Shown here one piece after another: positions 3,321 through 57,100 of a stretch of DNA of 59,802 nt. Each line of letters begins with the position of its first letter. Position 1 is the stretch's first letter. The position numbers were made by a program, and so were the translations under genes. The notes below the pieces were generated by a model. That model worked only from the letters and a program-made list of their open reading frames with translations, ran no database searches and had not been told where the DNA came from. The DNA lies in the IMG/VR virus record IMGVR_UViG_3300034167_000343, positions 1 through 59,802 of that record; one strand, written 5' to 3'. The stretch comes from a virus.

Positions 3321-4161
3321 CATTTCCTTGTTGTCCTTCTTCTTTTTGTAGTCGTTGGTACTGAGGACAGAAAGGTGCGACTTCGCAGTAGTTTTCGCAG
3401 CGCCTGTTCACTCCGGGCCTCTCAACAATTTCCATCCCTGGCCCTGGGTCACCAAGCTCTTCGCGATTAGGGCTGACCCTAACTGCGCGTTTGCCGCCTG
3501 CTTTCATGAGCGCATAGGTGGTTCCTGAATACCACCGCTCGTCGGCGCTGCATTCAGACATCATGCCGTCATCTGCATTTTTGTGTAAGGCTATTCTTAT
3601 TTTTATGTAGGACAAAACTTCCTCATAAGGCCAAACTCTAATAGATATTTTCTTGATGGCCTGCTCCGGATAATCATGTTTCCTGAGCGCTTCTGATTTC
3701 TTCCAGTCCCTGAAGATGGCCACCACCTCCAGGTGGTCGATCTCAATCCCGTTCTCGCGGGCCAGCCAGCGCAGCACATTGAGTTGACGCTCCCACCCCT
3801 CGTCGCCGCCGGCCTTGTAGGTGGAGCAGACCTTCCAGTCCTGGAGCACCCGGTCTGCGATATGGGCCCGGTCAAATTGGCCGCTGAGCGTGACGCCGTC
3901 GACCTTGGCGTACAGCCGCTGCTCCACCACCGCCGAGGTCTCGGCCCGCTCCAGCACCGTATGCACCGCCTGACCCATCAGGGACCAGATGCGCTCGCTG
4001 ACGTCCTCGACCACCACATCGCGGTACTGCTTGGCCAACACACGCTTCTGCGCGCTGTCGATCAGCTTGGTCACTGAGATGTCGCCCCCTCCCGTGTAGG
4101 GGTCGTTCCGCACCGCAGCGACCAACGCATCCGGGAGCCCGTACAGGTTGGTCAGGTTCAT
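3307..4161 (-). CDS. Cas4/RecB-like PD-(D/E)XK nuclease
   Basis: 284 residues from the ATG at 4161. The core motif 'SGQFDRAH' followed by 'VLQDWKVCS' gives the Asp and Asp-x-Lys of a PD-(D/E)XK nuclease, and the C-terminus holds a Cys cluster 'RRCENYCEVAPFC' like that of Cas4-type Fe-S exonucleases. Next to an ERF annealing protein it is probably the resecting exonuclease of the phage recombination system. The protein ends in NDVDF, resembling an SSB acidic tip. The 3' third (about 3560-3660) is noticeably AT-rich compared with flanks. Confidence 0.82.
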   Translation of the reverse strand: MNLTNLYGLPDALVAAVRNDPYTGGGDISVTKLIDSAQKRVLAKQYRDVVVEDVSERIWSLMGQAVHTVLERAETSAVVEQRLYAKVDGVTLSGQFDRAHIADRVLQDWKVCSTYKAGGDEGWERQLNVLRWLARENGIEIDHLEVVAIFRDWKKSEALRKHDYPEQAIKKISIRVWPYEEVLSYIKIRIALHKNADDGMMSECSADERWYSGTTYALMKAGGKRAVRVSPNREELGDPGPGMEIVERPGVNRRCENYCEVAPFCPQYQRLQKEEGQQGNDVDF

Positions 4162-4430
4162 CAGAAGTCGACCTCGACTTCGTTGTTGGTGCGCTTCGGG
4201 GCACTGCGCTGAGGTGCGCTGCCCTGCTCGCGGGGCGCGTACTTCGGATCCGGCAGGCGCAGGACGCCGGACTTGAACGGGTTTCCGGCCTTGGACACGC
4301 GGTTCCAGATGGCGACTTCGTACTTGGTGCCGTCCGGGAACTCGACGGTGCCGGTCTCGTGTGGCGCCTTCTCGTTCGTGCGGCGGTTGTTCTCGAAGAT
4401 CGTGATCTCGATTTGGTTGTTGTAGGTCAT
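4161..4430 (-). CDS. small ssDNA-binding-like protein
   Basis: 89 residues: an N-terminal strand 'NQIEITIFENNRR', a beta-rich middle 'GTVEFPDGTKYEVAIWNRVS', and a flexible C-tail ending NEVEVDF. The layout (FENNRR, 'SKAGNPFKS') recalls the small DUF736/OB-like phage proteins that serve as single-strand binding factors, and the acidic-aromatic tip resembles that of SSB. Position between ERF and the nuclease supports a recombination role. The assignment is by pattern only. The ribosome site AAGGAG lies inside the ERF gene. Confidence 0.6.
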   Translation of the reverse strand: MTYNNQIEITIFENNRRTNEKAPHETGTVEFPDGTKYEVAIWNRVSKAGNPFKSGVLRLPDPKYAPREQGSAPQRSAPKRTNNEVEVDF

Positions 4431-4432
4431 GT

Positions 4433-5020
4433 TCAGGACTCCTTGGTTTGGGCGGCCTTCTTTTGAAGGCGGGCGATGACCTCCTGGACCTTGGCCAGGG
4501 GCAGTTGGTTGATGGAGCTGATGCTGTAGGCGCCAGCGATCGCCTCCAGGGGCATCTGCACCGAGGCGGCAAGGCTGGTGATGGCCGCCAGTTCGTTCGG
4601 TCCGGCCAGCGCTTCCTGGCGCTTCTGAGGGGGCGCGTTGCGCACCGCCGCCGTCGCCGCATTTGCATCGTCGTCTTCGGGCGCGATCCCGCAGGCCGCC
4701 ATGAGCGAGTACCTGCGCGCATAGGTCAGTGCTGACCCGTATCCCTGAGGGTCGTGCTTTGCGGCGGGCACGTACAGGCGACCGGCGCTGAAGACCTCGC
4801 CGGATTCATGCACGAAGGTGGTCTCCACGACCACGCCCGTGTCGGACTCGTGGGTCTGCTGGATGAGCGCGATGCCGCTGTCGTTGAGCGCGTCGATGAC
4901 GGCCTCAACACAGGCCGCCAGATCGGCGTAGCGGCTCTTGAAGTGCGGGTTCGAGCTGGTCTTGAGTGCCGGGCCAAAAGCCTTCTGCGCACGGACCAGG
5001 GCCGCCGAGATCTCTTTCAT
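4433..5020 (-). CDS. erf: ERF-family single-strand annealing protein
   Basis: 195 residues from the ATG at 5020, which has an AGGAGG ribosome site. The ERF signature is clear: 'NPHFKSRYADLAACVEAV' near the N-terminus and 'DPQGYGSALTYARRYSLMA' around residues 90-110, followed by 'GIAPEDDDAN'. ERF proteins form rings that anneal complementary single strands and recombine or circularise phage DNA. It is the first gene of the leftward unit, so its promoter should lie in 5021-5349. Confidence 0.93.
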   Translation of the reverse strand: MKEISAALVRAQKAFGPALKTSSNPHFKSRYADLAACVEAVIDALNDSGIALIQQTHESDTGVVVETTFVHESGEVFSAGRLYVPAAKHDPQGYGSALTYARRYSLMAACGIAPEDDDANAATAAVRNAPPQKRQEALAGPNELAAITSLAASVQMPLEAIAGAYSISSINQLPLAKVQEVIARLQKKAAQTKES

Positions 5021-5069
5021 CAGTCCTCCTAGTTGTAACAGGGTTCGGTGTTGCGATAGCAACCAGCTA

Positions 5070-5272
5070 TTGTCCACAGGATGTGCGCAACGTGTCTGAT
5101 TGTAGGTGTAGGAGTTCTCCTATCGATCTAGGTGTTTCCACCAGTTGTGTGTACAACTTGTGGATAAATAATCCTCAACATTGTTTCTTAAGGCTTTACA
5201 GCGTTTTCTTACTGTGGACAACCTTGATCTTAGGTGCTCTTTAAGGCTCCTGTAGCAACAAAGTTATCCACA
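5070..5272. other. candidate replication origin with DnaA-box cluster
   Basis: Four DnaA-box-like 9-mers lie in about 200 bp of AT-rich DNA: TTGTCCACA at 5070-5078 (+), TTATCCACA at 5159-5167 (-), TTGTCCACA at 5213-5221 (-) and TTATCCACA at 5264-5272 (+). Two match the consensus exactly. The stretch separates the divergent ERF and primase-helicase genes. DnaA boxes recruit host DnaA; the inference is that replication starts here and loads the phage helicase. The surrounding 5021-5349 has no convincing gene. Confidence 0.7.
5109..5158. promoter_or_regulatory. operator-like inverted repeats between divergent early units
   Basis: TAGGAG-TT-CTCCTA (5109-5122) and AGTTGT-GTGT-ACAACT (5143-5158) are perfect 6-bp inverted repeats; GTTGC-GATA-GCAAC at 5050-5063 is a third. 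They lie between the start of the ERF unit and the primase-helicase gene, where early promoters are expected. Regulator unknown. No convincing -35/-10 pair could be fixed by eye. Confidence 0.45.
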
Positions 5273-5349
5273 GGCCAACAATAGACAGCACCTTGTTACA
5301 TAGGCTGTCTCTATTGCACACACGAACACTTACATCAACACAGAACAAC

Positions 5350-7056
5350 ATGAAGTCATTCGCCGACTACGGCATCGACCTCCAGGGGAAGTCCGGAGAA
5401 GAGGTCAAGGTCACCTGCCCTCAGTGCTCAAGCACCCGTAAGAAAAAGAGCTACCCGTGCCTCAACGTCAACACCTCGAAGGGCACCTGGCACTGCTGGC
5501 ACTGCGGCTGGTCGGGCGGAATTCCTACAGGCGTGGTCAACCGATCTGCCCCTCCCTCCCGGCGCGTCTACCCGAAGCCTGAGTTCCGTCCTGCGGCTTT
5601 GTCTGACGGGGCCTTCAAGTTCTTCGAGAAGCGCGGCATCACGATCGATGTGCTGATCCGCAACCGCGTTTCGATGGAACGGGTGTGGATGCCCCAGATC
5701 GAGGACGAGGTGACCGCCATTGCCTTCCCGTACTACCGAGGCGGAGAGGTCGTGAACATCAAGTACCGCGACGGCGCCAAGAACTTCCGTCAGGTCGCCG
5801 GGGCCCAGAAGGTCCTCTACAAGTACGACGACATTGCCGAGGTCACCCTCATCACTGAGGGTGAGCTGGACGCCCTGGCCCTGGAGGTGGCGGGCTTTCA
5901 GAACGCGATCTCGGTGCCTGATGGCGCACCCGACCCCTCAGCCAAGAACTTCGACACCAAGTTCGAGTACCTGGACGACGATCGTCTGGATCAGGTCAAG
6001 CAGTTCATCCTGGCGGTCGACGCCGATGAGCCTGGGCACCGCCTGGAAGATGAGCTGGCCCGCCGCCTGGGCCGTGACAAGTGCCTGCGCGTGACATGGC
6101 CCGAGGGCTGTAAGGATGCCAATGAGGTCCTGGTGACGCATGGCGCCCAGGTCTTGCGCGAGTGCATTGAGGACGCGAAGGCGTTCCCCCTGGAGGGCAT
6201 CTTCTCGATGGGCGACATCGAGGCCGACCTGGACAACATGCTGGAGTTCGGCCTCATCCAGGGCGAGCCCACCGGGTGGGATTCGGTGAACTCGCTCTAC
6301 ACGCCCGCCCCCGGTCAGTGGACCTTGGTCACCGGCATCCCGAGCATGGGCAAGAGCGAGTGGCTTGATGCTTTGGCGGTGAACCTTGCGGAGAACGCAG
6401 GCTGGACCTTTGGTGTGTGCAGCCCCGAGAACCAGCCCATCTCCTGGCATGCCGCCAAGCTCATCGAGAAGCGCATGGGTGAGCGGCTGGTGGCGGGCCG
6501 CGTCAACGCCTCGTTGTTCCAGGGCGCGAAGGAGTGGATGTCCCAGCACTTCCACTTCATCATGCCCGAGGATCCCACGCTGGAGTCGGTGCTGGCCAAG
6601 GCCAAGGCGCTGGTCAGGCGGCACGGGATGAAGGGTCTGATCATCGATCCTTACAACGAGCTGGACCACACGAAGCGCAGAGACAACGTGGCAGAGACGG
6701 AGTACGTCTCGCTCTTCCTGACGCAGCTCCGCAAGTTCGCGCGCGAAAACTCGATCCACATCTGGCTGGTGGCACACCCCGCCAAGCTGATGAAGGACAA
6801 CAAGGGCATCTACCCGGTGCCTGATGGCTACACGGTCTCAGGCTCGGCGCACTTCTACAACAAGGCCGACAACATCGTGGCGGTCCACCGCGACCTCACG
6901 AACCCGCAGGCGGCCACCGAGGTTCACGTTCAGAAGGTGCGCAGCCGCTGGCTGGGCAAGCGTGGCGTGGCCTACCTCCAGTGGAAGTCTGAATCGGGGC
7001 GCTTCAGGGAGTTTGCGGGCGCCTACAGCCCTCCAGGAACGGAGGTGTACGAGTGA
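5350..7056 (+). CDS. bifunctional primase-helicase
   Basis: 568 residues from the ATG at 5350. Domains in order: N-terminal zinc ribbon with CPQC and CWHC pairs (about 20-55), TOPRIM primase core with TEGELDAL and the AVDADEP metal site, then a DnaB/RecA-type helicase with Walker A GIPSMGKSE and Walker B GLIIDPYNE plus WLVAHPAK. This is the T7 gp4/Twinkle arrangement: it unwinds the fork and makes primers. No phage polymerase is encoded, so host Pol III is presumably used. There is no clear ribosome site before this start, which is unusual for this genome; it is the first gene of the rightward early unit. Confidence 0.93.
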   Translation: MKSFADYGIDLQGKSGEEVKVTCPQCSSTRKKKSYPCLNVNTSKGTWHCWHCGWSGGIPTGVVNRSAPPSRRVYPKPEFRPAALSDGAFKFFEKRGITIDVLIRNRVSMERVWMPQIEDEVTAIAFPYYRGGEVVNIKYRDGAKNFRQVAGAQKVLYKYDDIAEVTLITEGELDALALEVAGFQNAISVPDGAPDPSAKNFDTKFEYLDDDRLDQVKQFILAVDADEPGHRLEDELARRLGRDKCLRVTWPEGCKDANEVLVTHGAQVLRECIEDAKAFPLEGIFSMGDIEADLDNMLEFGLIQGEPTGWDSVNSLYTPAPGQWTLVTGIPSMGKSEWLDALAVNLAENAGWTFGVCSPENQPISWHAAKLIEKRMGERLVAGRVNASLFQGAKEWMSQHFHFIMPEDPTLESVLAKAKALVRRHGMKGLIIDPYNELDHTKRRDNVAETEYVSLFLTQLRKFARENSIHIWLVAHPAKLMKDNKGIYPVPDGYTVSGSAHFYNKADNIVAVHRDLTNPQAATEVHVQKVRSRWLGKRGVAYLQWKSESGRFREFAGAYSPPGTEVYE

Positions 7057-9905: not shown

Positions 9906-10306
9906 TGGCGAGGCCCTGGGGCGAGAACGCGGCGGTTATACGGGCCGTCCTGAAAGACCTTGGTCCGATGACATGCTCGGAGGTTCAGAAAGAGGCTGGC
10001 CTGACCAGAAACTCTGTGACGGCGGTGGTGTCTCGGATCCACCGATCGGGCGAGGCGCACATCACGGACTACGCATATGACGACGAGGGCGCGAGGCGGT
10101 ACCCCAGGGCGGTGTACGCCTGGGGCGCAGGCAAGGACGCGAAGAAGCCGAAATCAAACCTCTCATTGGATCGGAGCAACAACGAGAGGTTGGCGAACAA
10201 CAGGATCAAGACGGCGAGTGTGTTCAACCTTGGCATGACGCGGGCGCAGTGTCGCCAGATCAGGCGTGTAGCGATTGGGGGCGCTGGTGAACAAAATCAA
10301 CAGTAG
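9905..10306 (+). CDS. winged-helix DNA-binding protein
   Basis: 133 residues from the ATG at 9905 (a GTG one codon upstream is possible; GGGAGG serves either). Residues 8-55 form a clear winged helix: 'AVIRAVLKDLGPMTCSEVQK', 'LTRNSVTAVVSRIHRSG' and a wing 'HITDYAYDDEGARRYPRAVY'. The basic C-terminal part is unstructured by eye. It could be an early regulator. It does not look like CI, Cro or a LexA-type repressor. Confidence 0.75.
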   Translation: MARPWGENAAVIRAVLKDLGPMTCSEVQKEAGLTRNSVTAVVSRIHRSGEAHITDYAYDDEGARRYPRAVYAWGAGKDAKKPKSNLSLDRSNNERLANNRIKTASVFNLGMTRAQCRQIRRVAIGGAGEQNQQ

Positions 10307-10760
10307 ACAGAAAGGCGCCGCTGCGGAGCGGGAGCTGATCAAGGAGCTGCAAGACCACCTGGGCGACGAGATCGCCGGTCGAATGAAGCGCAACCTGGAG
10401 CAGTTCCGCAAGGGCGGTCATGACATCACCGGCCTGCCGGGGTGGGCCATCGAGGTGAAGCGCTACAAGCGGCTTTCTGATGCCGACCTGAACCGGTTTT
10501 GGGAGCGACAGGTGGTGGATCAGGCGCTGAGGGTCAAGTGCAGGCCGGTCCTGGCGTACAAGGGTGATTACAAACCATGGCGCGTTCGAATCCCTATCTG
10601 CCTGCTCCGCGATATTGGGTCAGCATGGGTCGATGAATGGGGCTGTCGATTTAACTGGACCGCCGATATCGGGATCGAGGCATTTGCATCAATGCTTCGT
10701 GAGGCTCACAGTGCATCCGTGTTGCTCGACGCTCCGAGCTTCAATACAATGCCGGCTTAG
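10287..10760 (+). CDS. PD-(D/E)XK nuclease, resolvase-like
   Basis: 157 residues from GTG 10287 (GGGGG upstream); a TTG four codons earlier is less likely. 'NSRQKGAAAERELIKEL', then Asp46 in 'GGHDITGLPGW' and Glu56-Val-Lys58 in 'AIEVKRYK' give the metal-binding triad of a PD-(D/E)XK fold of the Holliday-junction-resolvase type. Likely resolves recombination or replication junctions. It is the last gene of the rightward early unit and is followed by a strong terminator. Confidence 0.82.
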   Translation: MNKINSRQKGAAAERELIKELQDHLGDEIAGRMKRNLEQFRKGGHDITGLPGWAIEVKRYKRLSDADLNRFWERQVVDQALRVKCRPVLAYKGDYKPWRVRIPICLLRDIGSAWVDEWGCRFNWTADIGIEAFASMLREAHSASVLLDAPSFNTMPA

Positions 10761-10911: not shown

Positions 10912-11280
10912 TCAACCGCCGAACAGCTTGCTTGTCAGCCGCTGCCACCAGCTCTTGCGCTTGCGCGGCTTGCGCTTGATTGGCTTTGGCGCCACCTCAA
11001 CAGGGGACGGCTGCTCTGCAACAAGGTACATGTCTCGCATATCAGGCGACCATTCCAACTGTTCCAGCCGCTTTTCGGCTTCCTTTTGCCGCTCCCAGCG
11101 CTTTTTCATCGTCGCTGATGCCGAGACAGAAGAGCGGGGCCGGTGCCTCTCTACGCCGAAACGGTCCAGTGTGTGGAAGATGGTGCAGAAATGGACGCCG
11201 TAAATCTTGGCGATCTCCGCTGCCGTGCCGGCTTTCTCCTTGTAAAGGCGCACGGCCTCACGTTGCTCTTTCATGGTCAT
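10912..11280 (-). CDS. small HTH protein with basic C-terminus
   Basis: 122 residues from the ATG at 11280. A longer frame begins at 11397, but it would overlap the HicA-like gene by 140 bp and has no ribosome site, so the internal start is preferred. Residues 1-45 hold a helix-turn-helix: 'EQREAVRLYKEKAGTAAEIA' then 'YGVHFCTIFHTLDRFGV'. The C-terminus is strongly basic (KPIKRKPRKRKSWWQRL). A DNA-binding regulator of the homeodomain/resolvase-HTH type is likely; it is a candidate for the missing phage repressor or an island regulator. Confidence 0.65.
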   Translation of the reverse strand: MTMKEQREAVRLYKEKAGTAAEIAKIYGVHFCTIFHTLDRFGVERHRPRSSVSASATMKKRWERQKEAEKRLEQLEWSPDMRDMYLVAEQPSPVEVAPKPIKRKPRKRKSWWQRLTSKLFGG

Positions 11281-11509
11281 TTTGAAGTGGCCACCTTGTC
11301 TCTTCTTGGAAGATCCTTTTGATCTCTGAGAGCTTGTTTCGCCGCCATCGGTGGTCGGATGGGCTTGCTGGGAGGAAGATGATTCGTTGTATTCCATGGT
11401 TGTTGATTACGATTGCTTTGTAGTGACCACCCCCGGATCGAGCCAGATACTCAACCCGGAGGTGCGCTTTCTCCAAAAACTGTCGCAAACTTAGTGCGAC
11501 GCGGTCCAT
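11258..11509 (-). CDS. HicA-like small dsRBD-fold protein
   Basis: 83 residues, ATG at 11509 with AGAGGAAAGG. 'LRQFLEKAHLRVEYLARSGG' followed by 'GGHYKAIVINNHG' and 'LPASPSDHRWRRNKLSEIKR' is the HicA-type layout, with the Gly-Gly-His site of the mRNA interferases and the SxxSDHRWRRN helix seen in phage relatives. No HicB-like antitoxin is recognised beside it. It may be a stand-alone RNA-binding or host-acting protein. Confidence 0.65.
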   Translation of the reverse strand: MDRVALSLRQFLEKAHLRVEYLARSGGGHYKAIVINNHGIQRIIFLPASPSDHRWRRNKLSEIKRIFQEETRWPLQNDHERAT

Positions 11510-12021
11510 ACCTTTCCTCTCTTGATTTTCACTTCAGTGGGTGGCGCCCCCTCTGGGTATGTGATGAATCCGAAGTCATTGATTTTTGACTCGGGGTGAA
11601 CTTCATATGCGCCCCTGATTGCGGCACTGCTGATACGCCGCAGCCTTTGCCTTGCCTGCTCGACCGTGTCTCCTCTCTCTGTCGATCCATCACGCGCAAT
11701 GAGCAGGTACTCCCGTATGGCGATGTCAATACCTTCGACAGGCTTGTTGTCGGCCATTGCTGCCGTGATCAGTCCATCAGTTGCGATGCCAATAAAGTTA
11801 CCCCTTCGGTATGCGTCCTGCTCTCCGTCACAAATAGAGGCGCCAAATATCTTCCCGGGACTGCCATCGTTGCATCCGAACCCTCCTATTGCTTTGACGA
11901 GTTGAAACCTGGGCATCTGGAACCGGCGCCCCAGAAGCCCCCAGTTGAGGACCAGGATCTGGCCCTTGATATCCCCGACAAGAGGCCGAAGCCTCTCGTC
12001 GGTGCTCTCGATGAGATTCAC
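11491..12021 (-). CDS. hypothetical protein, 'ALLGRRFQMPRFQLV' type
   Basis: 176 residues, GTG start with GGAGG 7 bases upstream. N-terminal part 'RPLVGDIKGQILVLNWGLLG' then 'RRFQMPRFQLVKAIGGFGC' and a C-terminal half with 'YRRGNFIGIATDG'. I have the impression of a protein found in phages and plasmids of Burkholderiales, without known function. No catalytic motif is visible. Confidence 0.7.
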   Translation of the reverse strand: MNLIESTDERLRPLVGDIKGQILVLNWGLLGRRFQMPRFQLVKAIGGFGCNDGSPGKIFGASICDGEQDAYRRGNFIGIATDGLITAAMADNKPVEGIDIAIREYLLIARDGSTERGDTVEQARQRLRRISSAAIRGAYEVHPESKINDFGFITYPEGAPPTEVKIKRGKVWTASH

Positions 12022-12195
12022 CTACAGCCCTCCGATGTCGTAGAAGTGGAGCCAGACTTTGTTGCTGACGTCCTCCGGCATGAGGTCGCGCTGCCACATC
12101 AGCATGAGCGCCTCCTGGATCTCCTGAAGCCGCTCTGTGTAGCCATGCGCCTCACTGATCTCTAGCAAGACGTGCTGCTCCCAGCCGTCCTTCAT
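12022..12195 (-). CDS. 57-residue hypothetical protein
   Basis: Read from the sequence: starts MKDGWEQHVLLEISEAHGYT, helical throughout, with 'QEALMLMWQRDLMPEDVS'. The ATG overlaps the stop of the amidotransferase gene (ATGA), and its own stop directly abuts the next start. Translational coupling suggests it works with, or is controlled like, the amidotransferase. Confidence 0.65.
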   Translation of the reverse strand: MKDGWEQHVLLEISEAHGYTERLQEIQEALMLMWQRDLMPEDVSNKVWLHFYDIGGL

Positions 12196-13163
12196 GCCAG
12201 CCAGCTCGGTGTGATGGAGTCGCTGGTGAAGAGGTCATCGATCCACTCCGCAGCCTCCACGTAGTCCTTGCGCACCAGATCAGAGAGGTCGCCCTCATCG
12301 AGGTCCTCGTACCAGTGCGACAGGACCTTGGCGGCCTTCTCGGGCGCGTCAAACACCCACTGCTCGATGCCGGCAACGCCGTGGCGGGACCACTGGTTGT
12401 AGGCCGCCTTCACGTACTTCTTGATCTGGCGGTCGCTCGACGGACGGACGTCGAAATCTTCGTCGGCCTCGTCAGGGAAGAGGTCTTGCGACTGAGGCTT
12501 GCTCGTGGTGGCGATGCGGCTTTGGAAGCCTTTTTCCCAGGAGCCGTCCCAGCCACCGTAGTGCCCGCCTTGCCACTGGACTTGCGCTTGCGGGGTACGA
12601 AACCCAAAGCGCGACGGCGTCCAGGCGTAGGTGTTGGACAGCCAGGAGTCGCAGAACTCGACGCCCGACTTCTTGTTGATGATGCAGCTCGAGCCGTCGG
12701 CATGGAGCAGGCCGAACTTGTTGCTGCTGCCGATGATGCTGCCCATGAACCTGATCCAGTGCGGATCATTCATGAGGCCCGGGTCGGCGGTCAGGGCAGG
12801 CGTCAGCACGTTCTTGATGAAGTGCCACGTATCGGACTTGGTGTGGTCCGCGTCGTTGCCCATCGAGAGCACGCCGTTGTGGGCGAGCCAGATGTCGTCG
12901 GTCACCCGGTACGGGTGGCAGTTCTCCATGTCCGTGTCGCCGTGCGTACGCATACGGGCGTGCCAGATGCAGTCACGCTTGTCGGCGTAGGTTCGGTAGA
13001 AGTCGATGAAGTCCTGAGAGGTGGCGGGCAGGCACTTGTAGATGTGCAGCTTGCCGCCCTCGGCGTACATGACGCCCAGGCCGTCGGAGTTCTTGTTGTA
13101 GACGTCGGTCAGGAAGTCGTCGGTGAAGCTGACGGAGCTGGGCTGTTGGGTCAAGAGGCACAT
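12192..13163 (-). CDS. class II glutamine amidotransferase-like protein
   Basis: 323 residues beginning MCLLTQ, so Cys2 becomes the N-terminal nucleophile after Met removal. Further Ntn-hydrolase residues are Arg and His in 'WHARMRTHGDTD', 'CHPYRV', and the oxyanion motif Asn-Gly in 'WLAHNGVLS'. Class II amidotransferases release ammonia from glutamine for a partner enzyme. The partner is likely the amidoligase encoded just upstream (9 bp gap). The C-terminal 120 residues form an unrecognised, acidic, helical extension. ATG with AAGGAAA ribosome site. Confidence 0.82.
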   Translation of the reverse strand: MCLLTQQPSSVSFTDDFLTDVYNKNSDGLGVMYAEGGKLHIYKCLPATSQDFIDFYRTYADKRDCIWHARMRTHGDTDMENCHPYRVTDDIWLAHNGVLSMGNDADHTKSDTWHFIKNVLTPALTADPGLMNDPHWIRFMGSIIGSSNKFGLLHADGSSCIINKKSGVEFCDSWLSNTYAWTPSRFGFRTPQAQVQWQGGHYGGWDGSWEKGFQSRIATTSKPQSQDLFPDEADEDFDVRPSSDRQIKKYVKAAYNQWSRHGVAGIEQWVFDAPEKAAKVLSHWYEDLDEGDLSDLVRKDYVEAAEWIDDLFTSDSITPSWLA

Positions 13164-13172
13164 GGTGTTTCC

Positions 13173-14606
13173 TTAAGCGGTTTCGAGGCGGTTGAGAACG
13201 TAGGAGCGCAGGGTCTTGGTCTCCGATGGGAGCTTCTGTTCTGCGAACTTGAGGAAGGACTCGTAGCCGAGGTTGGCGGCGGAGCAGTCACCGCAGGACG
13301 CGGTGTATTCACACAGGGCGTGGACGAACTCGATGGCGGCGACCAGCGACTCGTACTTCAGCGTGCCCCGGAAGATCCGGAACTCGATGGTCTTCTTGGG
13401 CGTCACGTTGACCGCCTCGTACCTGTCGCTGGACTGAAGGGCCTTGCCGACCTTGGCCTTCTCGTCCTTGATCCGGCAGAAGCCGGTCATGGCCTCGCCG
13501 TACCGGCGGGCCAGGGCGCTGATGAAGTCCCTGTTGTCCGGGCTGTTGACGAACGCCACGATCTTGGCGATCTGGAGCTTGGACAGCCTGTCGCGGTTGA
13601 CGTGGATGTGCAGGCCACAGTTCGAGCGGCCCCTGTCCCTGCCCTTGTGCGAGATCAGGCCCTTGGTCAGGCTTTTGTTCTCAAGCCACTTCCACAGCTC
13701 CCTGTGCGCCGGCAGGCTCATCGGGTTGGTGACGATCTCGAAGCCGTTGCTGAGGCTGCCGTCACGCTCGAAGAAGACTTGTGAGCCGACGCTGCCGCCG
13801 TTGATGGCGTCGTTCAGTTGGTGGGCCTTTGGCTCAAGATCCAGGTACCTGTCCATCGTCTCCACCTCCAGCTCCACGCCCAGGAAACGGCCGTGCTTGC
13901 TGGTCCAGCTGTCATGCTTGAAGCTGATCTGGTTCTTGCTGCTGTGGTAGCCCGCAATGACCGACGGGGTGGGCGGGTCGTAGTCGACGTGAACCCGCAT
14001 GCCCTGCTCGTCTCTGAAGATGAAGTCCTCGTCGTATTCGTGGACGCTGACGCGGTGGCCGTTTTCGTTGATGGCGGGGACTACGTCTGAGCTGTTGACG
14101 TAGCAGTCGTACCGATCGATGTACGTGAAGGCGTCGCCCTGACAGTCGCGGCAGATCGATGTTTCGGTGTACGTGCTGCACAGCCTGCCGTCGAACTCCC
14201 ACTCTTCGCAGTGGTCGCACCGGGTGATGCCGACGTGCTCCTGGATGTAGTCGTGACAGTCGTACTCGTCGTCTGCATCATCAAGCCTCGCCATCATGCG
14301 GTGCAGCGTGCTCTGGGAGCCCCCGAAATAACCCATCTCGACCTGTGCCACGACCATGGGCATGGCGTAGTGGGTCTGACCGTTTGCAAGCCTGTCAATG
14401 GTCGAAAAGATGAGGTCGCTGGCCCTTTGATTGATCGCCTCGCTGTAGGCCCAACCACCCTCTGTGGTGCGCAGCTTGCAGATCTTGTGGATCAGCTCAG
14501 AGGCGTGCTCAATGCGCTCTGCGGTGTCTAGCTTGTGGAACAGCCCCAGGAAGCGTTCCCTGTCCTTGATGAGTGCCTGAAAGTACGGAAGCTCGTACAT
14601 CTTCAT
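13173..14606 (-). CDS. amidoligase-like (COOH-NH2 ligase) protein
   Basis: 477 residues. The C-terminal two-thirds fit the Amidoligase_2 family, a glutamine-synthetase-fold ATP-dependent ligase: 'GVELEVETMD', 'FERDGSLSNGFEIVTNPMS', 'CGLHIHVNRDRLSK', 'RYEAVNVTPKKTIEFRIFRG' supply the acidic metal/ATP residues and the His-x-His motif. The N-terminal part has a zinc-knuckle-like region, 'CDHC' ... 'CRDC'. Such enzymes join amines or ammonia to carboxylates; target unknown. Start ATG with GGAG, directly after a terminator hairpin, so expression may depend on read-through or a local promoter. Confidence 0.82.
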   Translation of the reverse strand: MKMYELPYFQALIKDRERFLGLFHKLDTAERIEHASELIHKICKLRTTEGGWAYSEAINQRASDLIFSTIDRLANGQTHYAMPMVVAQVEMGYFGGSQSTLHRMMARLDDADDEYDCHDYIQEHVGITRCDHCEEWEFDGRLCSTYTETSICRDCQGDAFTYIDRYDCYVNSSDVVPAINENGHRVSVHEYDEDFIFRDEQGMRVHVDYDPPTPSVIAGYHSSKNQISFKHDSWTSKHGRFLGVELEVETMDRYLDLEPKAHQLNDAINGGSVGSQVFFERDGSLSNGFEIVTNPMSLPAHRELWKWLENKSLTKGLISHKGRDRGRSNCGLHIHVNRDRLSKLQIAKIVAFVNSPDNRDFISALARRYGEAMTGFCRIKDEKAKVGKALQSSDRYEAVNVTPKKTIEFRIFRGTLKYESLVAAIEFVHALCEYTASCGDCSAANLGYESFLKFAEQKLPSETKTLRSYVLNRLETA

Positions 14607-14624
14607 GATTGGTCTCCAGAAATG

Positions 14625-14645
14625 AAAAAGCCCGCGTCAGCGGGC
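14625..14645 (-). terminator. island terminator 1, upstream of the amidoligase
   Basis: Minus-strand stem GCCCGC-TGAC-GCGGGC followed by TTTTT. The T-run continues into CATTTCTGGAG, which contains the amidoligase ribosome site. Terminator and ribosome site are therefore fused; the same arrangement recurs upstream of 19772. Confidence 0.8.
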
Positions 14646-14666
14646 CGGGAAGAAGGAAGCGGAGAA

Positions 14667-14687
14667 CCCGCCCCCCGTAGGGGCGGG
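14667..14687 (-). promoter_or_regulatory. GC-rich hairpin, copy 1
   Basis: Perfect 8-bp arms CCCGCCCC / GGGGCGGG with a 5-base loop, just downstream of the 64-residue membrane gene. Identical arms occur at 19367-19387, again directly after a small membrane-protein gene region. No T-run. Possibly an mRNA-end stabiliser or a site for a regulator. Confidence 0.5.
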
Positions 14688-14697
14688 GACGAAGCGG

Positions 14698-14892
14698 TCA
14701 CCGAAGAAGCACCACGATCGAGATGAACCCGATGACGGCGTAGATCACGGTTGCTGCGAACGACAGGCCATCCCTGCGTTCGATCAGTGCGGTTTGGAGC
14801 TGCTCCATGTCAAGGCTCGCTTCGTACCGCCTGGGCGGTTCGTAGTGAGACCCGATGAGCACCTTGCCGGTGTTGAATGGCGGCGTTTTCAT
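14698..14892 (-). CDS. small tail-anchored membrane protein
   Basis: 64 residues from the ATG at 14892 with an ideal AGGAGG site; ATGA overlap with the upstream gene. A soluble N-terminal part 'KVLIGSHYEPPRRYEA' and helix precede one hydrophobic C-terminal segment 'FAATVIYAVIGFISIVVLL'. Probably inserted in the inner membrane by its C-terminus. Function unknown. Confidence 0.75.
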   Translation of the reverse strand: MKTPPFNTGKVLIGSHYEPPRRYEASLDMEQLQTALIERRDGLSFAATVIYAVIGFISIVVLLR

Positions 14893-15086
14893 GGCAGTAC
14901 CTCCTCTTCTGAATCTGACGATTCGCAAATCTCAAGAATATCTTGAGAGTAATGCTCATCAACCCCAGGTTCGTTATTCACGTTGAAGCATTCATTCGCA
15001 GCATCCGCCGCTGAATTCATATCTTCCGCCTCAATGGCGTACGTCTTGCGGATCACAGCCTGTATGGTTATTTTGTATGTTTTCAC
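14889..15086 (-). CDS. DpnD/PcfM-like small protein
   Basis: 65 residues, GTG start with GGAGGAG. 'MKTYKITIQAVIRKTYAIEA' then an Asp/Glu-Ala helix and 'HYSQDILEI' match the tiny alpha-beta proteins of the DpnD/PcfM group found in phages and conjugative elements. Function unknown. Coupled on both sides. Confidence 0.7.
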   Translation of the reverse strand: MKTYKITIQAVIRKTYAIEAEDMNSAADAANECFNVNNEPGVDEHYSQDILEICESSDSEEEVLP

Positions 15087-15385
15087 AACAACTCCTCCGG
15101 GATATCAATCTCATCCCCCAGTTGGCAAGCAACGTATCCGCGCATGACGGCGACCAACGGTGTTGGCCCTTCGCAATAAGTCGACGATCCGCGACCTATG
15201 CAGGTTGCCACCCAAACACCATGAGCGCCCTGCAAGGACACGCACTCACGCTCGATGATTGGCCCACCTTGGTCCCATAGTTGGGACGGCACATAAAAAT
15301 CGAGGCCGGCGTAATCTTCGCCCTCGCACTTCGCTACCGCCCAGTCAAGGGCAGGGCCAGTCAGGTCAGATGTTTTGATCTTCAT
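15083..15385 (-). CDS. DUF2591-family phage protein
   Basis: 100 residues. 'TSDLTGPALDWAVAKCEG', 'QGGPIIERECVSLQ', 'WVATCIG', 'GPTPLVAVMRGYVACQLGDE' and 'IDIPEEL' are the family landmarks. It is common in phage accessory regions; function unknown. ATG with AAAGGAAA. Confidence 0.88.
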   Translation of the reverse strand: MKIKTSDLTGPALDWAVAKCEGEDYAGLDFYVPSQLWDQGGPIIERECVSLQGAHGVWVATCIGRGSSTYCEGPTPLVAVMRGYVACQLGDEIDIPEELL

Positions 15386-19787: not shown

Positions 19788-19810
19788 GAAAAAACCCGCC
19801 GAAGCGGGTT
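19788..19810 (-). terminator. island terminator 3
   Basis: Minus-strand stem AACCCGC-TTCG-GCGGGTT with a UUCG tetraloop and TTTTTT, followed by CATTTCTGGAG. The sequence from the T-run to GGAG is the same as before the amidoligase gene. It lies after the first gene of the island. Confidence 0.85.
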
Positions 19811-51108: not shown

Positions 51109-54100
51109 ATGTCCTTCGTAGAAGACTTCTTTGGCACGCCGAGCCAGCCGCAAGGCATCACGGCACCCTACAAAACCTTTGATGAGGCGCGCAAGGATGT
51201 TGCCGCAGCGGCCCCAAAAGCCGGCTCATCTTGGGTTAGTGAGATGTTTGGCGAGGCGCCTGCGGCGACTCCGAATATCCCTCCGACTCCTGCGGCCCCC
51301 GATCAGGGAAACTTCGGGCGTGGCTTTGACGTCTCCGGCAAGCAGTTAAAGCAGACGGCCTACGGCACCGCCGCCCTCATCGGCGACACCTTCGGCTCCG
51401 ACGACCTCAAGAAGTGGGGCTTGCAGGGATACAGGGACGCCGAGAAAGAGATCCAGGCCATCAGCAAGGAGTCTGACTCCTTCACCAGCGCCGTCCAGGC
51501 TGGTGATATCGGAAGTTGGCTGACCTACTCCGCTGGCTACCTCACCGGCCAGTTCGCTGATTTGGCTGTGGCGTCTGCTGCCGGGGCTCTTGTTGGTGGT
51601 GCCGCGTCTGGCCCTGCCGCCCCTGCTGGCGCTGCGGCTGGCGCCCTTACCGGGGCCATCAACAGATCTGCCGTGCAGACGGGTCTGCGGGGTGCTGTAG
51701 GCAAGATGATCGACAAGGAGGCTGCGGCCCTGACCGCCACCTACATCGAGCGCGGCATGGTCAAGGCGGTTGCTGAGAAGGCCGCCGCTGAGGCCGCCGT
51801 CAAGTCGGTCTACCGCACCATTGGCGCCACCACTGCCAACACCTTCCTGAACGCCACAGGCGAGCTGGGCTCCATCTACGGCGAAGCGGTTGAGCAGGCG
51901 GCCAAGACCGGCGAGGAGTACAGCCTGGGCAAGATCTGGCTGTCCGGTATCGCGGCCACGGCCGTTGACACCTGGGCAGACTCCAGGGCGGTCAAGGGCT
52001 TGACCGACGCCTTCAAGGGCAAGAACCGCGTCAGCAGCATCGCCATGGAAGCCCTCAAGGGCGGCATGCGCGAAGGACTGACCGAAGGCGCCCAGACCGT
52101 CATCGAGCGCTTTGGTGCCGACAAGGACCTTGCGAGCAAGGAAGCCTTCAAGGAGTACATCGACTCAGCCGCCATTGGCGTGCTGGGCGGCACGGCTGTG
52201 GGCGGCGCATCTGGTGCGGTATCAAAGATCCAGGCCAACACGGCGACCACTGAGACGGACCAAACCCAACCCAACTTCACCAAGCTGCCCGACTCTCAGT
52301 CTGGTCGCACCCGACCCCTGGATGATGCCGACACGCCGGGGATGTCTCGCGATGAGGTGCGGGACACCTTGAGCAACCCTGGCTTTGTGGCGGCCTTGTA
52401 CCAACAGTCCAGTGACATTGACAAGAAGATCCTGAGCAGCGCGGTCGAGCGAGCCGGCTTGCAGGATGTTTTTCAGAATGCCCTGAAGGACCCGGATCAG
52501 ATCGCCTACGGGGCGAAGATGATCCAGAACAACCAGGACTTTGCAGCCACCTTCATGAAGGGTGCGGAGGAGTTCGCCACTACGCAGTCGCCGGCCGGCG
52601 TGTTCAAGGTGGACCGCAGGGGGGCGACTCAGTCTTCTGAAGACAACTCGATTGACGAGCAATTCGCCCAGGAGGGGTACACGCTCAAGGAGCGCTCCAC
52701 CAGCACCCCGACGAATCGCACCGCAGAGCCCGCTGCCGACCTTACACCGCAGGCCACAGAGACGCGGGTCCTCAACGATCGGGAGGATCCGTCTCCTGCC
52801 ATTGAAAACCGCGATGGGCTGATCACCAAGTTCGGCGACATCGGCAATCAGATCTTTGAGGGCGACATGAGCGCCGCGAAAGAGGCCCGGTACGACTGGG
52901 CCACGAAGCAGCTCGTCGGCTCCGGCTTCAGCACTCAGGATGCGCGCTCGATCCTGATCGGCGAGATGACCGCACCGAACCTCAATGAGCAGGGTGCGCT
53001 TGAAGAAGCCGTCGAGGCGACTGCCCCGGGTGTCCAGGAAGTTGAAGCTCTGGATGACGAAGCGGGCCTGCCGAAGGACATCCGTGGCGTCAAGATGACG
53101 GAGAAGAGCCGTCCTATCTTGGATGCCTACTTCTCCGATGAGATCGCATCGCTCCAGGGCCAGAAGGATGGCAAGGGCAAGGCTAACCGCCTTGCTCAAC
53201 TGGAGCGTCAGGCTCTGCGCGTCGGGTTTCCTCAGGCTGATGTTGATCAGATGTTCGGTCGATCTACTCAGGTCACTGAGGCCCAAACCGTCGATGAGCC
53301 ATCCGACAAGGCGGAGGTGACAGAGTCGGGCGCAGCCCAACCTCAAACTGAGGCGCAGCAGGCCACGGGGCAGCTTAAGGACGCCCTGGCAAATCTTGGC
53401 GACGTCCTGGGTGACGCCTTCGGGGCCAAGCTGAACGCCACCGGCCAGCGGTACACGATGGCTGACCTACCTGACGCGCTCAGCAAGGTCATGTCGGCCC
53501 TGCTGAAGTCCGGCTACGTGCAGTTCAAGGACGCCGCATCAGAGCTGATGAGCCGGATGCGCGCCAACAAGGACTGGGCGCCTCTGGTCGGCAAAGTGGA
53601 TCAGGGCATGCTGCTGAAAGCCTGGAATCAGGCGGGCGGCAAGAACGTCGCGGCCCGCGCCGATGAGCAGGAAGGATTTGTCGGCCCACAGGAGCGTGAG
53701 GAATCAGTCAATCTGGGTGATCTGCGTAGAACCGCCACCGCAGAAGACGATGATGGAGTGACCCTCCAGAAAATCCAGAAGACCAAGGGCGAAAAGAAGC
53801 AGGCAAAGGCCCCCGCGCCCAAGGTCGCTGACAGGCCCACCCAGTTGCCTCTCGGCGTATCGATGCCGAAGCCGAAGGTCGTTGAGCCGGAGCCCATTCG
53901 TAGGCTGAAGTCGGCCATCGAGGGCCGCATCAAGCAGACCACCAACGCTTCTTTCTACGAGGACTCGATCCGCAGGCTCCAGGCTCAAATCACCGAGGTC
54001 GACGAGAAGCTGCGGTCCTTGGGCACGGTCGAGACCAAAGATGGTGAGCGGTTCAAGGCCCGGCAGGAGGGTGATGAGAACCCTGGGATGTGGGGTAATC

Positions 54101-57100
54101 AGGACGAGAACGCCTACGACAGGTTCGACGGCGGGATGGTCTTCGACAAGGCGTCCCCGAAGAACGAGCTGCTGGACCGCCGACGCAAGCTGACCGACGA
54201 CCTGGAGAAAGCGCGCGATGGGTCTCAGCGTGGGCAGGCGCGTCTGTACCGCCTGGGCATGGACCGCCTGTCCGACTACATCATCCGCAAGAGCGAGGCT
54301 GTCATCAAGGGCGGCGCAGACCCCGAGATGGTTCGCGCCGCTGTCGGGCCGTACATCGACGGTATCGGGGCGCTTCGGCAGTCTCAGGTTCGGGACCAGG
54401 ACCAAGAGCAGTCGGTCGACCGGGATCTTGAGGAGGTCAACCGCAACTTGTCCCAGGCCGACTTCCTGGAGGGCGAGAAGGTGGCCATGGGCCTGCTGTC
54501 CGACTTCCGCTCCCGGCGCATTACTCAGCAGGAGCTTGAGAGTCTTGAGCAGCGCGGCCTGCGCGAGGGTGACTTCACCCTGAACGATTTGTTCAATGCC
54601 TACCGCGCCATGGGCGTGAGCCCGCAGCAGCGCCTGTATGCGGCCCTGAAGCACTTCTCTACCCGCATCAGGCTCAAGGACTACGTGGCTCAACAAGGCG
54701 GCGCCGCAAGTGCCGTCGATGCGTACTTCCTGGATATGCAGCAGGCCCGAGAACTCATGGGCAAGAAGGATTTCGAGAACCGGTATGCCCAGCGAGATCG
54801 AGACCTCCTGGACCTTTGGAATCGGGATCGCAAGGATGTCCTGGCGCGTCGCCACATCACCAAGACCATGCGCGACTCCGACGATCCGCGCAAGGCTTTC
54901 GACGGCTTCCTGTTCACCCGCATCACCTTGACCGAAGCCAGGAATCCGGACCTCATCCAGAGCCCCACCCTTCGGCAGACGTACAAGGGCCTGTTCGACA
55001 ACCTCGAAGAGGCGTGGTTCTCTGATGTTGCGGCTGCGCTGCGTCTCCGCCCTGATCTGGCCGGCGCGATGTTCGAGCCACAGTACCGCGCTAGTGACCG
55101 CGCGGCAGTTGCCTCTGAGCCCATCGTCTCGACGCAGGACCGCAGGGACTTTCAGTCCTGGGTTGATCGCCTAAAGGCCAGCATCCAGAAGCAGGCGGAG
55201 GTACTGGCCCGAGCCCCGTACTTCACGGCCCTGCGCAACGACCCCATGCTGGACGCAGTGACGACGGCTGAGGGCTTCCCGATGGTGGCCAGCACTCCAA
55301 GGGTCGACGTCCGCCAGACGGGCTTGAGTGCGGAACTGGATTCTCAGGATGGTCGTAGCGTCCGTCGCGCTGAGTACGAGGTGCTGTACACCAAGGTTGT
55401 GGCCGGAGAGCTTGACGCGGTACGCGAGGTGCTGGAGTTCGATGCGCGGCAGAAGGCCATGCAGGACCAATCATTTGACAGTGAGACCGGCGAGATTGAT
55501 CTTGCCTCGGACGCACTCGACAGCATTCTGATGAACGCGCAGATGACCGAGTCCGATCGCAGCAACTACGGCAGGCGCATCGATGGCGACAGCAAGGTCG
55601 TCCGCACTGTCGAGGAGGCAGCAGATCGCGATGCGCAGATCGGTGGTCAAGTTGGCAGCAACCTCGATGACCTGACGTCTGATGAGCAGATTCAGGAGGG
55701 CGTGATCTCCGAGTTCGACGCCGAGACTCAGGAGCTTGCTGACGAGGACTCCGAGGTCGAGGAAGGTCAGGGCGCAGACCAGGGGACGGCGGCGGATCGA
55801 GAGACAGAAAAGAAGAAGGGTGGGCGCGTCCCCGTCAGCCTTGTGCCCGGCCAGGAGTACCGCTTCCGACGCGGCAAGGCGTGGGATGTTTTCTCCATGA
55901 CCGCCGTTCAGGACATCGTCAGCCGCCTGACCACCGGATGGAAGAACGCGCCCAACGTCATCGTTCTGCCCAACGCTCAACATCTCCCTGAGCCGCTGCG
56001 CTCGCGCGTGATCGAGAAGCTGGCTGGCAACGGCGCCAAGGGCCTGTACCACGAGGGCAATGTCTACCTGTTCTCGCAGCACTTGGATGGCGAAGCGGAC
56101 ATCGAGTTCACGCTGTTCCACGAAGCCTACGGCCACCTGGGCATGCGGGCGGTTCTGGGTGAGAAGTTCGACCAGTTCCTGGAGACGGCATACCGCACCC
56201 GCCCCGAGGTCCGTAATGCAGTAGACGATCTCATTGCCGATGGCATGCCGAAGCTGGAGGCCATCGACGAAGTCCTGTCCGACATGGCGGCTGAGAACCG
56301 CGAGACCTCCATCGCCAAGCAGTGGGCCGGCAAGATCATCTCCGGGCTTCGTGAGATCGGCCTTGCACGGGTGGCGGATTGGTTTGCCACGATGACCGAT
56401 GCCGAGGTTGCCTCTACCCTGGCGTCCGCCCGGAACGCAGTGCGTAACGGCACCATGCCCACGATGAACGGCGCGCCCAGTGAGGTGCGTTTCAAGGAGG
56501 TCAAGCCGCCCTACGAGGTGTTCGCCACCAAGGACGGCAAGACCACGGGCTACGCACGCTACAACCCGGTCACCGACTCATGGGCGGTGTTCTCGGCAGA
56601 TGCCGCCGACATCCGTGACGGCTACACCACCACGACCACGCAGGACTTCGATGCGGTCGTGCAGGCCATGAAGCTCCGGGGCAAGGTCGAGTACCGCCTG
56701 AGATCCGGCTTGTACGTGGACGACAAGATCGTCCCCGACCTCGTCACGATCCCGAAGTTCAACGACACCAAGAAGTATTCGATCTGGGACTCGCGGCGCT
56801 GGGCTCAGTTTCGCCGCATGACGCAGCTCAAGTTCCAGAACGAGTACCTGCCCGTCTTCGAGGTGGTCGAGTACCTGGAGTCCAAAGGACGGATCACGCC
56901 GCAGACCGATGTCAAGACGGCGCTGATGCTGTACGAGCGTCGCGCCGGGTACTTGGTGGAGCAGTTCCGCAAGCAGTACGCGGAGCCCATCCAGCAGCTC
57001 GTGGCTCAAGCCGGCAAGCTGGGCGTGACCAAGAAGGACATTGACCGCTACCTGACGGCACGGCACGCCTTTGAACGCAATGCCGTGATCGCGTCGATTA

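Follow-up and report, generated by a model that had tools for sequence, protein, structure and literature searches.

Adjacent amidoligase and glutamine amidotransferase (GATase) genes were predicted in phages by Iyer, Abhiman, Burroughs and Aravind in 2009 (as cited in PMC10580990), and for over ten years annotations of such pairs have come with a guessed role in modifying the surface. No product is named in the literature surveyed, and our search of it gave no biochemical evidence for this amidoligase branch and no experiment identifying what it makes. The pairs of this type in MEP401/402, Marvin and Ottawa consist of an Amidoligase_2 gene and a class II GATase gene, adjacent, co-oriented and with complete motifs, for which surface or peptide modification has been proposed (cited in PMC10580990). 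The window studied here, the whole stretch of 59,802 nt analysed, comes from a virus of bacteria and has the same kind of pair, but its operon adds genes for proteins of 57 and 176 aa, and the phage appears to be temperate, with a portal of the SU10/HMO-2011 type.

The same two enzyme families occur in the peptidoglycan-modification cassette of RIO-1, phiEco32 and LUZ24-like podoviruses (PMC5498523, PMC3890496). That cassette holds amidoligases, ATP-grasp, GATase and GGCT, whereas the window operon and the flanks that were searched are without ATP-grasp and GGCT, and the full peptide-tagging chemistry is therefore not available there. Four loci (L073, L074, L076 and L078) carry two amidoligase genes each, which is near to the RIO-1-type arrangement. 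In Staphylococcus aureus the ligase-glutaminase pair MurT/GatD amidates the glutamate of peptidoglycan (PMC3267633). It resembles the window pair in having two genes, separate ligase and glutaminase proteins and, as predicted here, glutamine-dependent amidation of a carboxylate; MurT is, however, a Mur-ligase homologue and GatD is CobB/CobQ-like (class I type), and the folds of the window pair are unrelated to them in both halves.

The pair and the cell-surface hypothesis are thus already known from phages, and the envelope or superinfection hypothesis for such cassettes has been published (PMC10580990, PMC5498523, PMC11318856). What is added here is a quantified obligate linkage, a four-gene operon, a zinc-finger-like module common to the whole family, a variable region proposed for recognition and the wide use that mobilisable elements make of the pair as cargo. 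For the last two no earlier statement was found in the papers surveyed, in which Iyer et al. 2009 is represented by citation.

The cassette genes all lie on the minus strand. The amidoligase gene (13173..14606, 477 aa), identified by its Amidoligase_2 profile and its fold model, is followed after a gap of 9 bp by the gene of the class II (Ntn) GATase (12192..13163, 323 aa), assigned by motifs and by alignment to GlmS. The reading frame of the 57-residue protein (12022..12195) begins at 12195, inside the end of the GATase gene, with which it shares 4 bp; it is kept in close phage relatives with a dN/dS of 0.15, and its product had no family match in the profile searches. These three reading frames and the 9-bp gap were as originally predicted, with the 57-residue protein as a coupled partner, but the unit does not end there: a fourth gene (11491..12021, 176 aa, GTG start) begins at the base after the stop codon of the 57-residue gene. 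Relatives that carry all four genes in identical order turned up in single-protein scans of IMG/VR. Purifying selection acts on all four overall, with dN/dS between relatives ranging from 0.07 to 0.63, and they are therefore real genes; the window lineage has a four-gene operon. Directly 5' of the amidoligase start is a leader (14604..14700, minus strand) with two GC-rich hairpins that end slightly more than 20 bases upstream of the start codon; the second looks like a terminator, a stem with TTTTT behind it. Both are conserved in five related loci (L005, L006, L007, L011 and L012; fold z -2.75), and a second terminator-like site that resembles the leader hairpin was seen at 19793-19810 on the same strand.

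The linkage of the two enzymes is close to absolute. Amidoligase-centred and GATase-centred profile scans gave 84 viral amidoligase lineages, defined as less than 92% identical, and a GATase was found in 82 of them with first-round profiles and in all 84 with iterated profiles, always within 3.5 kb and on the same strand. The amidoligase comes first in 81 lineages and the GATase in three. When the amidoligase scan is taken alone, 77 of 79 loci had a GATase match with the first-round profile, and 71 of the 72 GATase-centred loci had an amidoligase, the exception (L127) starting inside the GATase at a contig end. Bacterial genomes gave the pair in 77 of 80 loci; two of the three exceptions (L216 and L251) are contigs that end just after the amidoligase. 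The sequence distances of the two proteins also co-vary in a mirror-tree comparison (r=0.89 for viral and 0.93 for bacterial loci; 0 of 500 permutations). The linkage spans phage and bacterial loci that share only ~32% identity in the amidoligase and ~20% in the GATase. It had been expected that the genes would be linked in other phages, and they are. Many loci consist of the amidoligase and GATase alone. When neighbours outside the pair were clustered, most of what emerged was synteny across whole lineages and antisense noise. Linkage to a GATase is not universal for Amidoligase_2 proteins; the gene on the Clostridioides difficile plasmid pCd18_2 (L265) has no adjacent GATase. In that locus (3707-5895) a gene with a nucleotidyltransferase domain takes its place after the amidoligase, possibly a different partnership.

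The amidoligase matches Pfam Amidoligase_2 (PF12224) with E=1.3e-6 and 29 bits against a cut-off of 22, the best stretch being only aa 384-431, and the PHROG amidoligase profile with E=1.4e-13 over aa 268-445. Its AlphaFold2 model (pLDDT 90.9, pTM 0.70) was compared with the PDB by Foldseek, and the matches were glutamine synthetase, YbdK, gamma-glutamylmethylamide synthetase, PafA and Dop, with E between 1.6e-5 and 7e-4; those to glutamine synthetase and YbdK are at E 1e-5 to 1e-4. The catalytic domain (aa ~225-477) thus has the fold of the glutamine synthetase/GCS2 (YbdK)/PafA-Dop superfamily, but the identity is only 11-15%, and the window protein adds a helical hypervariable part (aa 1-125) and a CxxC...CxxC zinc-finger-like part with beta structure (aa 126-210). 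Nine residues of the catalytic domain (E245, E247, D282, S284, E290, H333, H335, E408 and R410) show no variation among 82-83 viral and 80 bacterial homologues, and G288, C330, G331 and R368 are likewise invariant or nearly so (83 viral, 76-80 bacterial). The motifs ExE, GxHxH and IExR suggest a correspondence to single residues of glutamine synthetase; profile alignment to E. coli GlnA and YbdK placed only GxHxH, with low probability. Amide formation would follow from the families of the two proteins.

In the GATase, the glutaminase domain covers aa 1-190 and aligns to the glutaminase domain and motif of GlmS. The protein falls just below the cut-off of Pfam GATase_4 (E=1.2e-4, 21.6 bits against 23), and a bacterial homologue (L253) passes that of GATase_6 with 43.7 against 27. 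The class II motifs are all present, that is a Cys immediately behind the initiator Met, Arg/ThrHisGly, AsnGly and Asp. Across 83 viral and 76-80 bacterial homologues, residues C2, R70, G75, N96, G97 and D111 vary hardly or not at all; at position 74, Gln replaces His in 71 of 77 bacterial homologues. Both active sites are thus complete and their catalytic residues near-invariant, which agrees with the original prediction. The same prediction offered an acidic tail of the GATase and an extra N-terminal Cys cluster of the amidoligase as possible means of target choice, and here the picture changes. The C-terminal region of the GATase (aa ~245-323) is common to only 55 of 83 viral lineages and is therefore not a general basis of target choice. 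The Cys cluster (C130/C133/C152/C155), which looks like a predicted zinc-finger module, is retained in ~95% of viral and bacterial homologues; it is therefore a regular part of this amidoligase branch and not an extra.

A likelier place of target choice than the tail is the hypervariable N-terminus of the amidoligase. Where catalytic domains are 70-80% identical, the median identity falls to 46% in the zinc/beta region and to 20% in the helical region (31 comparisons). Identity is lower in the helical region than in the catalytic domain in 605 of 607 comparisons; these comparisons are not independent of each other. The pair L011 and L012, with 97% identity in the catalytic domain, has 74% in the zinc/beta and 71% in the helical region. 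An N-terminal region that diverges so much faster than the catalytic domain fits target recognition, but the fast divergence can also reflect relaxed constraint. A dN/dS above 1 was seen in a single comparison (L006 against L007, 3.6), and this value rests on 1.5 synonymous changes. Synonymous divergence is also raised in this region, and recombination may therefore contribute.

Taken together, the intact active sites and the obligate linkage point to an amide-forming modification system, and this part of the original prediction stands; the Cys cluster, the tail and the restriction to phages do not stand as they were written. It is probable that amidoligase and GATase form one two-subunit, glutamine-dependent amidating enzyme that acts on a macromolecule or a peptide. 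In the mechanism we propose, the two proteins would meet in a physical complex, and the GATase would lose Met1 so that Cys2 can hydrolyse glutamine and free ammonia. The amidoligase would use ATP to turn a carboxylate into an acyl phosphate, which the ammonia, once transferred, would attack to give a primary amide. The amine could also be other than ammonia, and the two enzymes could act sequentially on different substrates. The variable helical and zinc-finger-like N-terminal part would recognise the target, which is presumably no small metabolite but a macromolecule or a peptide. The foremost candidate, put forward tentatively, is a peptidoglycan precursor or another envelope peptide, and amidation of the envelope might change the surface so that competing phages or elements are excluded (superinfection exclusion). 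A host or phage protein is the second candidate, only slightly less likely. The location of the cassette among DNA-metabolism genes gives no support to an envelope role. With these data, what was a guess of surface modification becomes a defined enzyme of two proteins, in which the predicted recognition region is open to test.

The preference for a large target has to be weighed against a small one, since the pair might make a small metabolite (an amidated amino acid, nucleotide or signal molecule) that the infected cell uses in its nitrogen or amino-acid metabolism, or that serves as a signal in conflict. Several of the nearest folds (glutamine synthetase, YbdK and gamma-glutamylmethylamide synthetase) do use small molecules, and Phage-ZRK32, which has an amidoligase, a GATase, a gamma-glutamylcyclotransferase and a glutathione synthase, has a role in nitrogen metabolism proposed for it by its authors (PMC10945688). 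We consider this unlikely, because a zinc-finger-like module and a hypervariable N-terminus would be unusual in a metabolite enzyme and a housekeeping nitrogen role leaves unexplained why the pair is cargo on tiny mobilisable elements. The linkage itself could come from shared descent or mobility only, with the GATase serving another synthetase and the amidoligase using another amine, e.g. an amino acid, like the peptide-tagging cassettes with ATP-grasp and GGCT. Extended ATP-grasp/amidoligase/GATase/GGCT cassettes are indeed found in StenR_269, phiM6 and UFV-P2 (PMC3890496), and the C. difficile plasmid amidoligase that lacks an adjacent GATase also agrees with separate functions. Yet genes that serve different partners would hardly be expected to stay together through such sequence divergence, to keep together when their order is reversed, as in three lineages, to co-diverge so tightly, or to make up the whole of many loci, and this explanation seems improbable.

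Class II GATases participate in some base-modification pathways, and this, with the position of the cassette among DNA-metabolism genes in several phages, speaks for a nucleic-acid target, in which the carboxylate amidated would belong to a hypermodified base that shields phage DNA. No gene for thymidine hypermodification or 7-deazaguanine was found among the window genes searched, which cover part of the small ORFs, and no base-modifying partner is conserved beside the pair. Hypermodification of DNA was rejected for want of base-modification genes among those searched, and we regard it as the least probable of the readings considered here.

The pair is present in phages of Proteobacteria and Actinobacteria, with an identical adjacent arrangement in MEP401/402, MW202733, Marvin and Arthrobacter phage Ottawa, and it was originally presented as a phage system. 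It is not specific to phages. It is also frequent in Oscillospiraceae, placed between the relaxase and the recombinase of mobilisable elements; the genes around it there are DUF960, a MobA-type relaxase and either a serine recombinase or a tyrosine integrase. In two Ruminococcus loci, L212 (6238-10635) and L197 (6189-10463), everything from the mob genes through the pair to the recombinase fits within ~4-5 kb, beside apparently unrelated genes. These and similar Ruminococcus loci contain an RHH/MobC-like gene, a relaxase, DUF960, amidoligase, GATase and a serine recombinase. Judged from gene content, they are apparently compact mobilisable elements with almost no cargo besides the pair, which is a main cargo of such elements in gut Ruminococcus. 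Three Polynucleobacter genomes also have the pair, one of them (L176) with a nearby gene that by eye resembles a tyrosine recombinase.

That both phages and relaxase-recombinase elements carry the pair as cargo is what a function in conflict or exclusion would lead one to expect. It is conceivable, but on present evidence rather unlikely in its entirety, that phages and mobilisable elements, in Gram-negative and Gram-positive hosts alike, have in this pair a common module for exclusion or defence, which amidates a cell component or a protein of a rival element chosen by the hypervariable N-terminus, in an arms race with the target. If true, mobile elements would have a new chemical means to mark host cells or rivals. 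A known anti-phage defence system was rejected, as PADLOC gave no system bar a HicA-like neighbour: the amidoligase, the GATase and the 57-residue protein had no match, and the fourth protein only a weak one (E=0.035). The HicA-like protein is small and encoded just 3' of the operon (11258-11509, minus strand; PADLOC E=0.001; phrog_2089), with equally placed relatives in ~14 viral lineages.

The fourth protein has two small domains (model pLDDT 90.2). Some relatives have the C-terminal one by itself, and the N-terminal one is also seen at the end of DUF3849 proteins from gut phages. No family was found for it in Pfam, NCBIfam or the PDB sequences, and its model had no significant fold match in the PDB, only a weak Tudor/SH3-like resemblance; the match in BFVD was one uncharacterised phage protein.

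The phage looks temperate from its gene content, which includes an integrase (95-1126), an ERF recombination protein (4433-5077) and NinX (15083-15385), all on the minus strand, and a PDDEXK_15 endonuclease (10275-10760) on the plus strand. A comparison by DNA found no close phages in INPHARED. The portal is SU10/HMO-2011-like, the nearest being that of Rhizobium phage RHph_TM3_14A with 36%. It was also possible to observe an ORF of 2783 residues at 51109-59460 on the plus strand, with a C-terminal LPD38 domain, which is a giant polyvalent phage protein.
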